From Spirochaetales bacterium (GTDB lineage: Bacteria; Spirochaetota; Spirochaetia; JABMQR01): 64,000 bases of DNA. Each line of letters begins with the position of its first letter. Within the stretch, counting starts at the first letter, position 1. The position numbers were made by a program, and so were the translations under genes. The stretch lies in NCBI GenBank assembly GCA_018399255.1, contig JAGYPA010000015.1, forward strand, positions 1 to 64,000. Direction: 5' to 3'. Under the pieces are notes generated by a model that was not told where the DNA came from, did no database searches, and was given only the letters and a program-made list of their open reading frames with translations. Shown here one piece after another: positions 5,640-12,817 of this stretch.

Positions 5640-7749
5640 GGAAGATTATTGTGAAATCGTTGGATCGCATCACTTTGCCGAAGCCGAAAAGGATCAATCT
5701 GGATCCTGACATTGCTGTCGGCTTCCTGGGGAACCAAAGGTGCAGTAAGAAGCTATACTCTCCGGCTCTCCAGCGCCGCCGGGTATCGTCTGGACACAGA
5801 GCAAAGCCTTGTCCAACGAAAATTGTGGTAGAGCGAAATATGACTGGCATCGTATCACACCTGAACTCCGGCAGCATCGAGGTTGAATGTCGGGATGAGC
5901 GGGCGTTCTTTTTCCCTGCGGGCGATGGGTGGCTGCTGATTTCTCCCCGGGAAGGGAATGACGGAGGCGTGATTCCCGAACCGAACCTGCAACAATGGAA
6001 CCGGCGCCTGCGGGATAATCGAAGACTGGGCAGATTACGAGTGGCGCGGGATAATGCTGGATATCAGCCAGGATCGCGTACCGACCATGGAGAGCCTTTT
6101 TACCCTGATCGAATTCTGGGCAGGATTGAAGTATAATCAGCTGCAGCTCTACATGGAGCATACCTTCGCCTATCGCGGACGCCAGGGTGGTGTGGAAGGA
6201 TGCATCGCCTGTAACAAGTGAAGAACTGCAGGAAATCGAGCAGTTTTGTGCTGTCCGCGGTATTGAGCTGATAGCCAATCAGAATTCGTTCGGGCACATG
6301 GAGCGCTGGCTATTCTTAATCCAGTATCACGATCTTGCTGAGATACCTGACGGCTTTGTCGATCAGTGAGTGTTCCGGCCCGTTTCTCAACACTGGCTCC
6401 CGTTGCGGAGGCTTCATTCGATCTGGTTGATGATCTGTGCTCAGTCTTTTTGCCCCTGGTGAAAAGTCCGCTGGTTAATGTGGGGGTGACGAGCCCTGAG
6501 AGCTTGGCCGGGGGCGAAGTGCTGACCAGCTTGCCGGGAGGTCGGTCAGGAGCAGGTATATGTGAATTTTCTCCTGTCGCCTGCATGATCTTGCCGCCAA
6601 CTACGGCAAACGGATGCTGGTATGGGCCGATGTGCTGATGCGTCATCCGGAAATGGTGACCATTTTGCCGAAGGACACTGTTCTGATGGACTGGGGCTAT
6701 AAACCAAATCATCCATTCGAGAGAGAGTGCGGAATTCTCGCCTCATCCGGGTTTGACTATATCATCTGTGCTGGTAATTCGGCCTGGAATGCCATCGGAG
6801 GGCGGTGGGCTAATGCCAGTCTGAACATCAGAAGCTGCCGGGCCGGACTAGCCGGAGAAAAACCTGCCAAAGTTCATGATCACGGGTGGGGTGATAACGG
6901 ACACATGGCGAGTTCCTGTCGAGTGCCGGGGTTTATTCTGGGTGGCGCGACGGCCTGGAACGGAGACGGTTCAGCGCTGGAAGCTGGTGAGCTGAAGGAA
7001 CTGCACGGGCTGTTGGAAATGCCGTACATGCAGGAAATCCTGTATCGTTTGGCTGAATACTCGAAGCTCGTCTATGGATCAGACGGTGTCAGTGATAATG
7101 GTGTCTTGCCACTGCGGCGGGAAAATATCTGGCAGAGGCTTTGCTGAGGATCGAACAGGTGGGTGAAATCTGCTGCAGCCGAGAACCGGAAAAAGGAATA
7201 CATAATACGACCTTGCTGGGAGCCTTGCTGATGGATCATCTGGCTCCTTATAACACGGAAGAGATTGCCCGGTTTGCGGATACCCGTTCGACCGGGAACT
7301 TGAGGAGCTTGATCGGATAGATATCTTTGCTCGAGGACCTTCCACGGGTGATGCTCCCACCTTGATGCGGCAGGGTGCGCTGGACGCTTTGATATGCTCA
7401 GGTTTTCCTGCGGCCTCGGCCGATGCCGCCTTGGGGGAGATGCAGGTGCAAGTTCAGGCGCGTCCAGCGACCCTGCAGGGACTGCTGACGATCGATCCAG
7501 TGCAAAGCAGACGGAACAGGCTGGGTGAGCAGGCTGCAGGAAGCCATTGCAGAGAGCAATAAGCGCCTCTGGCATCAGCGATCCCGGCCGGAGCGGACTT
7601 AAGAAGACAGCGGCGAACGGGACTACTTCTTGCGTTGGGCGCCGCGTATTGCGGCAGATTCAGTGTCTGACACCGGATTCCTCCTTGGAGGCAGCCCGGA
7701 AAATGCCGTGAGGTGGGTTGAAATTGCCCGGGAGGAGATAGCCCGCTGA
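5640..7749 (+). pseudogene. Glycoside hydrolase family 20-like beta-N-acetylhexosaminidase, many frameshifts
   Basis: RGIMLDISQDRVPTMESLFTLIEFWAGLKYNQLQLYMEHTFAYRG, then EELQEIEQFCAVRGIELIANQNSFGHMERWL, then MLVWADVLMRHPEMVTILPKDTVLMDWGYKPNHPFE in different frames. 3' limit uncertain (7615-7749). Confidence 0.7.
7657..7680. repeat. Dispersed palindrome copy 1: GATTCAGTGTCTGACACCGGATTC
   Basis: Direct sequence match to copies at 9990, 10864 and 11636. Confidence 0.9.
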
Positions 7750-7863
7750 TAAGGCAGACCTGGGAAAGCAGGTCTGAAAAAAACTGGGATGATCACTGCT
7801 GAACCTGAGTAAAAGTATGCGGAAAAAATGATTCAACAGGGTGGACAGGTTTGCCTTACCACC

Positions 7864-8260
7864 CTACAGCGACAGGTAGGGAACCAGCACAGCGACTATG
7901 CCGGTAGCCGCAACCACAAGCAGAAACAGCAGGTAGCGAGTCCTGTATGAATTGAGCAGACGCTCATCGTAATACCCGGCCACGCCGTTATCCCGGTACA
8001 TGCGCACCAAGCAAAATCTGAGCTGACTGCGGGCCTGGCGTCCCTTGAGGAAGCCCGAATACTGCCACAACGTTGACCACTGTCGTCAGCGGAAAATATA
8101 ACCATCACGATCATTCTGGGCTCATCGCTTTCGGCAGTGCCGAATTAACTGCCGCCAGCGTCACCAGATTCCGGTAATATGGATACCAGAACAAAAATGG
8201 TATCGGTTCTGGTATTCGTCGGATCTCATCAAGTAAATGCATGTGTACATGTTCAATCAT
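7864..8260 (-). pseudogene. Frameshifted small membrane protein of unknown family
   Basis: ATG at 8260 (MIEHVHMHLLDEIRRIPEPIPFLFWYPYYRNLVTLAAVNSALPKA) then frame changes to RQARSQLRFCLVRMYRDNGVAGYYDERLLNSYRTRYLLFLLVVAATGIVAVLVPYLSL*. Confidence 0.35.
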
Positions 8261-8384
8261 ACTGCACCTCCTGTATCAGTTCCTTATAATTATGAAATAT
8301 AATTTCTTACCCACGCATAACCATTTACCCGCTTACCCGCTTACATCGTTGATTATTGTATAAACATCGGTTTACAAAAAGACC

Positions 8385-9095
8385 AGAACTACGGGGGGTT
8401 GATGCATAACCGATTCCCATCCGGTCAATTCCCAGATCTATCAGGGTGAAAAATGCTCCCAGTTGCGAATTCCTCCGGGAGCCCTTCACTTTGCCTTCCC
8501 CGGGCGGCTTCCAGCATAACCGATATCACACCTCAACTGTGGCCCCTTTCTCACTCCCCCGTTACGGAGCTCGCCGGTATAGAAACCGGTTGAGTGTCAA
8601 ACAAAATCAGTTCCTGCCGTTACCGCACACTCGGTTGCTCTCCTGATTTCGGTAAAGGGTGAGGGCATCGGTCTCGAATATAGTTTTCAGAGGCAGTGCC
8701 ATACTGACGGCAGACGGCGGCAACCGCGCCCGGATATCTTCGGTTACCTCATCCCACAGGCCCTTTGCGGATCCATCCATAATTGGCTACAACATCCAGT
8801 TCAAGGGGATATCTCCCCTGAGCGCAGATAAACTCAGCCTGAGCGGCTTGCTGAATCAGTAGACGAAAGTCCGAAGGGGAAATCGCACACGACGCACAGA
8901 TCGGTTTTTGTTCCGGCTTTGGTTTCATGCCAGGGGGGATTGCGATGGATTAATGCAGACAGTTCTGCGGCCGTACTTGATGCCGTCAAGTATGCACTGC
9001 TCAACCTCTGCCTGGGTGAATTCCAGCTTCAGCACGGAGTGGTCAATATAGGCAGCAAGCTCTGAAACGTTTCATAAGGCTTTTTGTACTTTCAT
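8385..9095 (-). pseudogene. deoC: Deoxyribose-phosphate aldolase-like (DeoC) remnant
   Basis: Minus strand from ATG 9095: YIDHSVLKLEFTQAEVEQCILDGIKYGRRTVCINPSQ, then GLWDEVTEDIRA, KTIFETDALTL, FFTLIDLGIDRMGIGYAST in shifting frames. Confidence 0.75.
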
Positions 9096-9773
9096 TATTA
9101 CGCTCCTGTAAAATGCTTCTGACTGCTGATGCATATGCCTGAAGGTCAGCTATATCCCGGGACTCCCGATATCAATTTCAATTACACAGAGATCATTCCC
9201 GCTGAGCAGAGAATTCATTTGCGGTAACTGTAACTGGCTGTTCCAGTATATACTCCCAGAGATGACGGTAGAAGCCGGCCCCGCACCAGGCAGTACATTC
9301 CCGAAACTGCAGGAATTTTCGCTATCGAACTGTTTTCTGATTCGAGTACAGTGGCAGTAGAGTTTTGCGGACTGCCGGGTCCTTTTCTTCATACCATGCG
9401 GTAAATTCTTTAGGAATGTAACGGCTCTGATATGGTTTCCGTCAAGGAGTCCTGCCATTCCCATACCTTTTCGCACCATAAAAATCCGACATGCTCACTG
9501 TCAAAGGCGCTTTGCAGTGCGGATCATCCCGATAAACCACTCCGTGCGCTGTTGGTGTTGTGCAGGCTGTGTGAACAGTACCGATGTCTCCGGTCCGGCA
9601 TTACAGATCCCGGAAAGCTGTCCAGTTCTTCTTCGGGAACGTGCAAGAGGGCACGCAGTAAGGATGTCATAAAGGGCGTTTGTCTCCCAGGCTTGACTGC
9701 GTTAGATCGATTGCCCTGCTCGTCCACTCAACAGTATTTAGATCTGAATCCGGATCCGGCAGGTCTTAGCGAG

Positions 9774-9830
9774 AGATCCAGTAGGTCTTGAAGATCCAGT
9801 AGGTCTTGAGAGATCCAGTAGGTCTTGAAG
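9774..9830. repeat. 18-20-bp tandem repeat (AGATCCAGTAGGTCTTGA) x3
   Basis: Three near-exact consecutive copies. Confidence 0.9.
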
Positions 9831-9989
9831 ACCTGGCAAATTTTTCAGGGGATGGCGAACTGCCCCTGCGGGCAGAAATTCAGTGTGGAAGCATCGGCGC
9901 CAGTTACGTTCAAAATCATCAATTTCTGACATGCTGAGAGTATACCATAATTTACTTGCACAGGGTACATCGGCAAAACTTTTCCCTGA

Positions 9990-10013
9990 GATTCGGTGTC
10001 TGACACCGAATTC
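9990..10013. repeat. Dispersed palindrome copy 2: GATTCGGTGTCTGACACCGAATTC
   Basis: Arms ATTCGGTGTC/GACACCGAAT are perfect around a central T. Confidence 0.95.
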
Positions 10014-10117
10014 TCAAAAAAGCCTGGGTAAATTGCGGAAAACGGTGATTGAAATCTGGTACAAAGCTCTCTGGTACGAGTTTTTCAAGCAGTTGTACTG
10101 GATTATGTGACTGTCAC

Positions 10118-10736
10118 CATTTTTACGAATTAACTCAGAGATCTTCGGTTTAAACTTGCTGTAACCTTCGTAAAAATAGCTCACGTCAATGCCCTTCATA
10201 AACAGGGAACGGTCATTGATTCTATCCGTTAATGCACTTATAAGGAGCTTTTTAATTTCGACGTCTTTTACCGGACTTCGCCATGGCAGAGAGGTATTCA
10301 TTTCCTGTCTACAAGATTCCAGTCGATGACCTGCCGTATCTCTTTTTCAGAATCAGATCCCGTAGATACGCAGCACTTCTTCCATTCCCCTCCCTGAACG
10401 GGTGGGCAATATTCATCTCAACATATTTCTCAATAATTTCATCAAAGCTGTTCTGGGGCATGGTGTCGATGTATTTCAGAGAATGTTCCAGATACATCAC
10501 TGGGGCAAAACGGAAATGGCCTTTGGCGATATTCACTTCTCATGACCTGCCGGCAAAATCATAGATATCACCAAGGGTATGCGTGAATGAAAGCCAGTCC
10601 GGCAAAGGTGCCCCACTACGCTCACGTGATCGAGGGTCTCCTGTATCAAAAAGGCTGCCGGGCTTTTTGTTTACTGATTTTTCCTCAGCTCTCTCGCCAG
10701 TTCAACCTGACTGGTTATGTGTAACTTGTTGTCCAT
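10118..10736 (-). pseudogene. Fic-domain protein (adenylyltransferase/toxin family), frameshifted
   Basis: Minus strand: ATG 10736 [69 protein letters not shown] (Fic motif HPFREGNGR); SPVKDVEIKKLLISALTDRINDRSLFMKGIDVSYFYEGY in another frame. Confidence 0.85.
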
Positions 10737-10863
10737 TACTTATAATACTACATTTTAAGAGATTAAGAAACTGGATACGGGTATCAGGATACAGGGGCGT
10801 ACATTACGAAATAATAAGGCGAAACCGGTTCAGAGTGAGTTCGGTACTTGTTTCGCGTATCTT

Positions 10864-10887
10864 ATTCAGTGTTTGACACCGAATCCC
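10864..10887. repeat. Dispersed palindrome copy 3: ATTCAGTGTTTGACACCGAATCCC
   Basis: One mismatch in the core relative to copy 2. Confidence 0.9.
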
Positions 10888-10989
10888 TCATAGAGTACTC
10901 CTGAGTAATAGGTACACATATAATACAATACCACGTAGCGTTTATTACCCATCTTTACAACTTTCTTTCTATGGCTGACCAAAATATCG

Positions 10990-11016
10990 TTGACAAAGGC
11001 AGACATTTTGTATAAT
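10990..11016 (+). promoter_or_regulatory. Candidate sigma70-type promoter upstream of toxin-antitoxin remnant
   Basis: TTGACA at 10990-10995 and TATAAT at 11011-11016; spacer is 15 bp (shorter than the usual 17), 8 bp before the ATG at 11025. Confidence 0.45.
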
Positions 11017-11024
11017 GTAATACT

Positions 11025-11295
11025 ATGCAGTACCTTAACTGGGACTGATAAAAACCTCACTTTGGAAAAGACCAGGGGCTTAACATTTGAAGAATTGCTC
11101 TTCTTATGATCGGAAATATTCTTGTGTTGAGAAAAACCCCGGATATTCAAGTCAAAAGCTTTATATATTGGAAATAAACAGGTATGCAGTTGTTGTTCCA
11201 TTTGTAGAAAAGGACAATGAAATATTTTAAAGACTGCCTTTCCAAGGCGGAATTTACAAAGGAAGTATGGTCTGCAGGGAGGAGAAGAAGAATGA
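11025..11295 (+). pseudogene. BrnT-like type II toxin remnant
   Basis: MQYLNWD..KNLTLEKTRGLTFEELLFL then EINRYAVVVPFVEKDNEIF then LKTAFPRR..KYGLQGGEEE* across frames; ends in ATGA overlap with the antitoxin start. Confidence 0.65.
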
Positions 11296-11569
11296 AAAGA
11301 GCATTTATCCCGCTTGATCAGGGAGAAAGAATTGATGGAGTCCATTGAAAATGATGAATGGACTCGGGTTAAAGATTTTCATAAGGAAAAAGAAAAGGCT
11401 CAAGCTGTTTGCCAAAGAAACACTCTGATAAAAAACAAACGAATAAATCTCAGAGGCTCACTGAAAAGGATTATTATGAAATTAAATCAGGGCTGTCCGG
11501 GAAGGAATACCGTACCAGACCCTCATTGCCAGTATCATACACAAGTATTTGAACGACTCCGCATTCTAA
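11292..11569 (+). pseudogene. CopG/BrnA-like antitoxin remnant
   Basis: MKRAFIPLDQ; KELMESIENDEWTRVKDFHKEKEKAQAVCQRNTLIKNKRINLR; EKDYYEIKS; IPYQTLIASIIHKYLNDSAF* (TAA 11567-11569) in successive frames. Confidence 0.7.
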
Positions 11570-11635
11570 AATCGTCAGGGTCTCGTAAAAAATCACTGGG
11601 TACATACTGCAATCCCTTATGTACATTCCTGTCTG

Positions 11636-11656
11636 GATTCAGTGTCTGACACCTTC
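11636..11656. repeat. Dispersed palindrome copy 4: GATTCAGTGTCTGACACCTTC
   Basis: Core GTGTCTGACACC identical to copies 1 and 2; right arm diverged. Confidence 0.85.
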
Positions 11657-11759
11657 TTTATTCTGGAGATCGTGATAGCCGAACTGATTATCGACAAGAT
11701 TGCGAAGGGTGAAGCACTTGTTGCCGTTGGCTGATGGGAATCATTCGAGGCGGCTTTCT

Positions 11760-12558
11760 CACGTGGGCTCTTGACTATTCAAATGTTTTGCGGATGCCTG
11801 CCTCAATAATCCTGCGCGGCAGTAAACGCACCATGAGAGAGCTGGACTGGTACTGCTTTGCCCACAGCGATGGACTGAGGAGTATGGCGGGCCGCCGCCG
11901 CGTGGTAGATTGCATTGCCGATTTTCTGAGGCGGCATACCGCTCTGCAGAAATTGTCGCGATGAGTTATACCGGGTTTGCACGCTCAGCATAGGGAGACT
12001 GCTTTCCGATAACGCCGACCTGCGGCTAGGTCGTGGCGACATAGTCAAAATAGATACTTGGAAACCTGTATGCCGAATGGAGGGCTGTCTCACTGCGAAG
12101 TCTTGCGGAGTAGGCATCGAGCCACTTTTGGCGGCTAGATACCGGAAAGGGACCGGAATTTTTGTTGCCAGAAGGCCAGTGTGGAGTATTTTTACCAAAG
12201 CCCTGTTTACGCATTGCAGGCAGATATATGCGGTTTCAATTGCACGGGACCGAAAAAGTTAAGGGCAAAGAGCTTTGCGCGCATCTTCCACGGTTGTCTC
12301 TTCTGCCGCGCCAATCTGCATTTATCCCGCATTATGAATTACGATATCACATCTCCCGTTTTCATACAGTGCTTCAATCGATTCTGCACTGGTCAGATCG
12401 AGTGAAACCATTCTGAAGCAGTCAGCGTCGGGGAATAGTTCATCGTGCAGAGGAGCATTCCTGGAAGTCCCGATTACACTATATCCATGCTTCAGGAAGA
12501 TAGCTGCGGTGGAATAGCCTATGCCTCGAGAAGCTCCCGTTATAAGAACACGTTTCAT
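11760..12558 (-). pseudogene. Short-chain dehydrogenase/reductase (SDR), frameshifted
   Basis: ATG 12558: MKRVLITGASRGIGYSTAAIFLKHGYSVIGTSR (TGxxxGIG), DIVIHNAG, then LFALNFFGPVQL, ...KIPVPFRYLAAKSGSMP (YxxxK region), FGIQVSILTMS in shifted frames. Confidence 0.8.
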
Positions 12559-12602
12559 ACGCTCACTTCCTTTCTCACGCTCCATGAATACTGAAGTTTG
12601 CA

Positions 12603-12670
12603 GAACCGCCGGAACCACCGGATCTGCCGGAACCGCCGGAACCATCAGAGTGGCCGGAACCACCGGGTCT
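12603..12670. repeat. Degenerate 9-bp tandem repeat (GCCGGAACC)
   Basis: Repeated GCCGGAACC/ACCGGATCT-type units directly upstream of the SDR start. Confidence 0.8.
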
Positions 12671-12684
12671 GCCTCCCGACAGAA

Positions 12685-12728
12685 GAAAAAAAATGGCGGA
12701 TAGCAGTGCTGCCTGCACCTATCCGCCA
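12685..12728 (-). terminator. Rho-independent terminator for the purine permease
   Basis: Minus strand: TGGCGGATAG-loop-CTATCCGCCA followed by TTTTTTTT, downstream of the 12818 stop. Confidence 0.85.
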
Positions 12729-12817
12729 GTATCACCCATATAAATTGCTCTAATGAAAGGTATGAAAAACCCGAGTCAGGAACTTGCCCTGACCGGGTCT
12801 TGCGTCGGTACGCTTTG

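Follow-up and report, generated by a model that had tools for sequence, protein, structure and literature searches.

A palindrome-ended hairpin family in a Spirochaetia draft genome, probably a dispersed REPIN-like repeat

Intrinsic terminators and the inverted pairs of Neisseria DUS both place an inverted repeat and a T-run at gene ends. REPINs are inverted doublets of a short extragenic palindrome, separated by a variable spacer and able to form hairpins (Bertels and Rainey 2011, PMC3116915), and the short palindromes of GTAG/CGTC-tagged REPs form dimers in which heterodimers are preferred; CGTC REPs also occur without a linked transposase and have been reported in Spirochaetes (PMC3733652). 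The BIME/REP sequences of E. coli, which are tagged and have a linked TnpA-REP, form extragenic mosaic hairpin arrays with conserved internal mismatches (PMC8266576). Here we analyse palindromes found in a window of 64,000 bases (bases 1-64000 of contig 57, C57) from a 4.4 Mb Spirochaetia draft genome of 246 contigs, that of an uncultured spirochaete. We consider it probable that these palindromes are the remains of a REPIN-like repeat family, dispersed and non-autonomous, that belongs to this spirochaete family. The GGTGTC hairpin family is new in sequence and known in kind, being untagged and without a linked REP-associated tyrosine transposase (RAYT) gene.

The window was described earlier as carrying four same-orientation copies of a palindromic 24-mer. 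With up to three mismatches allowed, the 24-mer matches at 7657-7680 (1 mismatch), 9990-10013 (exact) and 10863-10886 (3 mismatches), where shuffled sequence gives an expectation of 0. The copy at 11636 keeps only the left two thirds of the sequence (GATTCAGTGTCTGACACCTTCTTT) and fails the three-mismatch limit; its core, GTGTCTGACAC, is intact at 11642-11652. The palindromes and their shared orientation are as described, and it is the fit of copies 3 and 4 to the 24-mer that is poor. The T centre is on the + strand in every copy, a 1-in-8 chance under a two-state orientation, and a T or A centre simply marks which end of an element is seen. The features of this region are listed below, where G001 is a congener, G002 belongs to a sister genus, and the A-type and N-type arms are those defined further on.

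7657..7680, + strand: palindrome copy 1, a solo decayed end (ATTC-AGTGTCTGACACC-GGATTCCTC)
8874..10786, - strand: 94% copy of own contig C187 (L116:10565-12457), with the deoC 5' part, an ORF homologue and fic
9995..10056, + strand: copy 2, a hairpin element of the 63-bp form that lacks one base at this site; its left palindrome is intact (9995-10007), followed by an A-type arm, an N-type arm to 10043 and a decayed right palindrome, GGTGATTGAAATC (10044-10056)
10863..10886, + strand: palindrome copy 3, decayed (TATTCAGTGTTTGACACCGAATCCCTCA), a solo end with an A-type arm remnant
11020..11640, + strand: BrnT/BrnA-like stretch, 93.5% identical to G001:C3 (11441-11653) and 69% to G002:C420 (11129-11548)
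11636..11659, + strand: palindrome copy 4, left part only, a solo end

The four window copies are probably old, mostly single ends, and probable relics of a dispersed repeat family. The element at copy 2 is also present at C187:11341. ATTC directly precedes the palindrome in 7 of 186 entries (six distinct palindromes, one counted twice), and the GATTC-flanked sub-variant is limited, among the 186 tested, to the window and the homologous C187 and G001:C3. Its restricted distribution suggests an origin in local duplication or rearrangement and not in a spread through the genome.

Across the 4.4 Mb genome, exact GGTGTCNGACACC occurs 107 times, and the reversed-motif control 0 times. Within the same family we counted 14 palindromes in G001, 13 in G002 and 1 in G003, while 114 other genomes examined from the class mostly have none; the highest count among them is 4, and many of the palindromes found there have a C/G centre. 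The earlier term "REP-like element" is borne out by about 100 copies that are extragenic, occur as inverted doublets and form hairpins. Phage, plasmid and viral collections gave no match to the unit, an Rfam search of 132 kb holding many copies gave nothing at gathering score, and a literature search for the exact sequence by string gave no title concerning bacterial repeats. Some contigs carry elements clustered at 1-3 kb spacing, and several elements sit at contig ends. An exact palindrome in C1 and G001:C33, considered as an element, looks like a chance match within a gene, conserved in both genomes.

Most of the palindromes are the ends of a longer element. A T-centred left palindrome pairs with an A-centred right one at 50 bp, giving a 63-bp element, or at 81 bp, giving a 94-bp element; 44 such T-left/A-right pairs were collected, 1-bp variants included, and they are inserted in both orientations. 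The element ends are 13-bp terminal inverted repeats, each itself palindromic. Each unit forms a polar hairpin of 63 bp, GGTGTCTGACACC-GTTTTCCGCAATTT-n-TTTTTTTGAGGGATAC-GGTGTCAGACACC, and the 94-bp form is this unit with its N-type half duplicated. Two kinds of inner arm occur, N (G..TTCCGCAATTT) and A (G..YCCTCAAAAA), and the two arms are opposite in 32 of the 38 elements with both arms classifiable (Fisher p=1e-4), including 11/11 short elements.

Stem positions 2-14 pair in 42-44 of the 44 elements, with changes on both sides at position 14 and an excess of complementarity at position 15. Positions 21 and 25-27 are complementary to their partners less often than in shuffled sequence, in accord with the opposite arm types. 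Two elements have wholly different yet complementary inner arms, one in C203 (CATCTG/CAGATG) and one in C31 (CTTTTGCA/TGCAAAAG). Intact elements fold as hairpins of -30 to -45 kcal/mol (z -5.5 to -8). Beyond the element ends conservation is limited to a weak A/T-run, and the arms are weaker in single palindromes than in pairs. G002, of the sister genus, has the arm motif TTCCACAA, not TTCCGCAA. Some palindromes are spaced at 21 bp.

The elements favour the 3' ends of genes. Such an end lies within 60 bp of 43 of 85 elements, compared with a random mean of 3.3 and a maximum of 9 in 200 trials, and 11 of the 85 are near a gene start (random 3.6). The TGA of GGTGTCTGA supplies the stop codon of the gene in 15/85 elements. 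Crude ORF calling places 18 of the 73 elements covered mostly within ORFs, against a coding fraction of 0.76. Genes beside elements are mostly intact and, by sequence reading, ordinary (permeases, sulfatases, sensor proteins). The preliminary description saw no copies in intact operons, which is true inside the window; genome-wide, most copies adjoin intact genes. It had also named presence only as terminators of intact genes as the outcome that would tell against its reading, and the 3'-end siting beside intact genes comes close to this, with a terminator role that is putative. TTTT occurs within the first 8 outer bases at 27.5% of multi-palindrome element ends, compared with 4.5% of intergenic controls, and the majority of outer ends are without it.

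As possible partner enzymes, the genome has several homologues of REP-associated tyrosine transposases, of which one reaches the curated cut-off. The palindrome (at most 2 mismatches) is absent from the three RAYT-bearing contig stretches and the IS200-like locus that were examined. The proposed enrichment beside such transposases finds no support here, as no copy lies near a full-length gene in the DNA read; a Y1_Tnp fragment on C188 has a palindrome copy about 400 bp away. A RAYT pair on C184 is accompanied by inverted doublets of a different repeat, AGAGGGGTCGGAGGTCCCCT, on its flank and between both genes, and the five exact cores of this repeat in the genome are all on C184. Y1_Tnp was undetected in G001, an incomplete genome with 14 palindrome copies. 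A GTAG tag stands beside 7/186 palindromes, about the level of chance, and CGTC beside none. RAYT acting in trans on the GGTGTC elements is possible but unsupported.

Exact repeats in the flanks equal the shuffled null, with no target duplication above chance. A comparison with most of G001, made in line with an earlier suggestion to set empty against occupied sites, yielded shared sites, the gain or loss of a 65-bp unit and rearranged sites, with no clean empty site. The want of a clean empty site counts against the mobile reading, in which element movement is inferred. Elements are only slightly depleted from G001-shared DNA (coverage 0.10 vs 0.15), and elements in G001:C69 and C13 are 98% identical in differing adjoining DNA.

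The gene remnants reported between the window copies are identifiable. The Fic fragment between copies 2 and 3 has a Pfam match on the window fragment itself. The BrnT/BrnA-like fragment between copies 3 and 4 is backed by the G002 homologue L137, which matches PF04365 with E 6.8e-6, under the curated cut-off. The deoC fragment between copies 1 and 2 is backed by C187, whose copy is 94% identical and has matches to solved deoxyribose-phosphate aldolases (E 6e-10); the longer deoC pieces of the window, searched alone, gave no significant match.

The description of these genes as decayed is doubtful, since around copy 2, where it was measured, the pattern is largely one of indel-type sequencing error. 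Window 8874-10786 differs from C187 at 34 substituted positions and by 47 indels, of which 24 are insertions and 23 deletions and 30 fall in homopolymers, whereas G001 and C187 differ over 2050 bp by 29 substitutions and 0 indels. Insertions and deletions in near-equal numbers, mostly in homopolymers, are what unpolished long reads typically show and are unlike ordinary pseudogene decay. Because its indels are balanced and homopolymer-dominated, window 8874-10786 reads as unpolished long-read sequence. The apparent frameshifts in this stretch are probably assembly error, and the C187-matched stretch appears to be a low-quality fill that could perhaps span all of 6.3-12.8 kb, the measured portion being the C187-matched part. 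The fic gene of C187 is an open 199-codon gene with a Fic equivalog match above cut-off. The deoC truncation is real, as C187 deoC ends after about 80 codons of recognisable sequence. Pseudogene-rich "decayed modules" in this draft genome call for caution and, at least around copy 2, are probably unpolished sequence.

Several rearrangement junctions coincide with palindromes. From 7684, four bases past copy 1, the window corresponds to the final codons of a C157 ORF. Homology to C41 starts at 11663, just past copy 4 (11663-11705 vs C41:1-43, 97.7%). In G001:C3, window positions 9989 and 11653 are brought together where two palindromes adjoin, the end of copy 2 abutting that of copy 4, and G001:C76 and C13, like C18 and C188, diverge at an element. 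The suggestion that the palindromes are cassette boundaries is not supported as a rule, given that copies follow intact genes and that the decay around copy 2 is error-like; these junctions, together with the occurrence of the GATTC sub-variant only in the window, C187 and G001:C3, are the part of it that stands. The expected enrichment beside toxin modules is weak. A copy lies within 1 kb of 3 of 15 PIN-domain genes (C203, C79, C146), compared with roughly 0.6 by a coverage-based estimate, an association that is suggestive only. About 14 kb separate the one BrnT gene that passes the Pfam cut-off (C204:1524) from the closest palindrome listed.

Among other explanations, the elements might be primarily functional bidirectional terminators or stabilisers of mRNA 3' ends that owe their spread to selection or gene conversion and not to transposition. 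Their strong 3'-end bias, outer T-runs and perfect stem of at least 13 bp agree with this, but a terminator needs neither one exact 13-mer nor opposite arm types and conserved internal mismatches, about 100 copies are too few for all the genes of a 4.4 Mb genome, and most outer ends are missing TTTT; we regard it as rather unlikely, with some claim to consideration. It is improbable that the palindromes are integron-like or other site-specific recombination sites shuffling modules such as Fic and BrnTA. The junctions at copy 1 (7684-C157), copy 4 (11663-C41), G001:C3 (9989/11653), G001:C76-C13 and C18-C188, the 1-3 kb clustering on some contigs and the confinement of the sub-variant to the window island would suit such sites. 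Yet most elements adjoin intact genes, and a look that was not systematic for integrases identified no linked recombinase. Draft assemblies also break or mis-join at repeats, several elements being at contig ends, and illegitimate or homologous recombination between repeats leads to the same junctions. Dispersed siting beside ordinary genes argues against an integron cassette array (attC) in particular. We give little credence to the broader proposal of an active or recently active hairpin-targeted system whose palindrome ends break and join so as to move small modules (Fic, BrnTA) from site to site without a linked transposase, favouring gene 3' ends, where the palindrome TGA becomes the stop codon.

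A MITE moved by a DDE transposase would likewise be short, non-autonomous and bounded by terminal inverted repeats, here of 13 bp, but flank repeats at the shuffled null leave it without a target-site duplication, and a non-exhaustive look met no parent transposon with such ends, making this quite improbable. Inverted pairs at gene 3' ends and some 21-bp spacings recall a DNA uptake or protein-binding sequence, like the Neisseria DUS terminators. Outside elements, there is one GTGTCTGACAC in 669 kb, TGTCTGACA occurs 10 times vs 4.7, and no sub-motif is enriched, so that a role of this kind is highly improbable.

On the preferred reading of a dispersed REPIN-like family, the unit would once have spread in single-stranded, hairpin-folded form and been recognised in trans by an enzyme, HUH-type or other, that is no longer recognisably linked to it. 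It would persist where it is harmless, after genes, and there might serve as a putative bidirectional transcription terminator or mRNA 3' hairpin. Its repeated ends may double as sites of breakage and recombination, and the GATTC sub-variant may have arisen by local duplication.

How, then, does the family compare with described systems? It resembles intrinsic terminators and Neisseria DUS pairs in having an inverted repeat and a T-run at gene ends, the T-run in a minority, but differs in its fixed exact ends, asymmetric arms and a motif that is not enriched singly in genes. It has the terminal inverted repeats of DDE-type MITEs without their target-site duplication. Like E. coli BIME/REP with TnpA-REP, it consists of extragenic mosaic hairpin arrays with conserved internal mismatches, whereas the tag and a linked TnpA-REP are absent here (PMC8266576). 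It shares with REPs in general its many palindromic, extragenic copies and with the GTAG/CGTC-tagged REPs the dimers of short palindromes and the preference for heterodimers, but neither tag adjoins the palindrome (PMC3733652). The likeness to REPINs is closer. Two inverted REPs at a preferred spacing form one hairpin, doublets are better conserved than singlets, and the elements are non-autonomous and number about 100; in contrast to REPINs, the palindrome is exact and only 13 bp, there is a strong gene-3'-end bias, and no full-length RAYT gene has copies near or flanking it (PMC3116915). The preference for gene 3' ends and the mostly opposite arms mark the family as an untagged, RAYT-unlinked, REPIN-like one in Spirochaetota, and it opens the way to asking whether spread in the absence of a GTAG tag requires heterodimer arms and internal mismatches.

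Apparent frameshifts in positions 6300-12800 of the window resemble those of unpolished long-read sequence. Most regions neighbouring this stretch contain normal long ORFs. Long ORFs are also missing from three stretches adjoining the GGTGTC-palindrome hairpin elements elsewhere in the source genome (C212:6300-11500, C188:5300-9400 and C46:30400-34600), which may be low-quality fill of the same kind.

Across 7 kb, C187:4044-11049, on the contig holding the second copy of window 8874-10786, is 99-99.5% identical to contig C3 of the congener genome G001, versus about 81-97% in the remaining shared regions examined. The high identity may reflect a recent transfer event, a mixture of strains or an error in binning the contig.

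At several loci the element ends carry additional palindromes recurring with a 21-bp period, perhaps through slippage or nested insertion. Further repeats were also noted.

L093:1390, L027:17876 and G001:C3:7215, examples of the 21-bp-period palindromes
window 12601-12673, imperfect tandem repeat with a 9-bp unit (CGGAACCRCC-like)
L133:14095-14265 and L132:4167-4207, dispersed repeat GGAACCAACAAGTTGGTTCCGCTCCTCTCGCTTCGTTTGGGAATAAA
G000:C184:26447-28169 (locus L133), adjacent pair of RAYT-like genes

The GGAACCAACAAGTTGGTTCCGCTCCTCTCGCTTCGTTTGGGAATAAA repeat numbers ~10-13 copies within the DNA read, some close to RAYT genes. Inverted doublets of AGAGGGGTCGGAGGTCCCCT, spaced 73 bp apart, occur next to the two RAYT-like genes on C184 and between them; this is a private REPIN-like repeat, distinct from the GGTGTC-palindrome elements.
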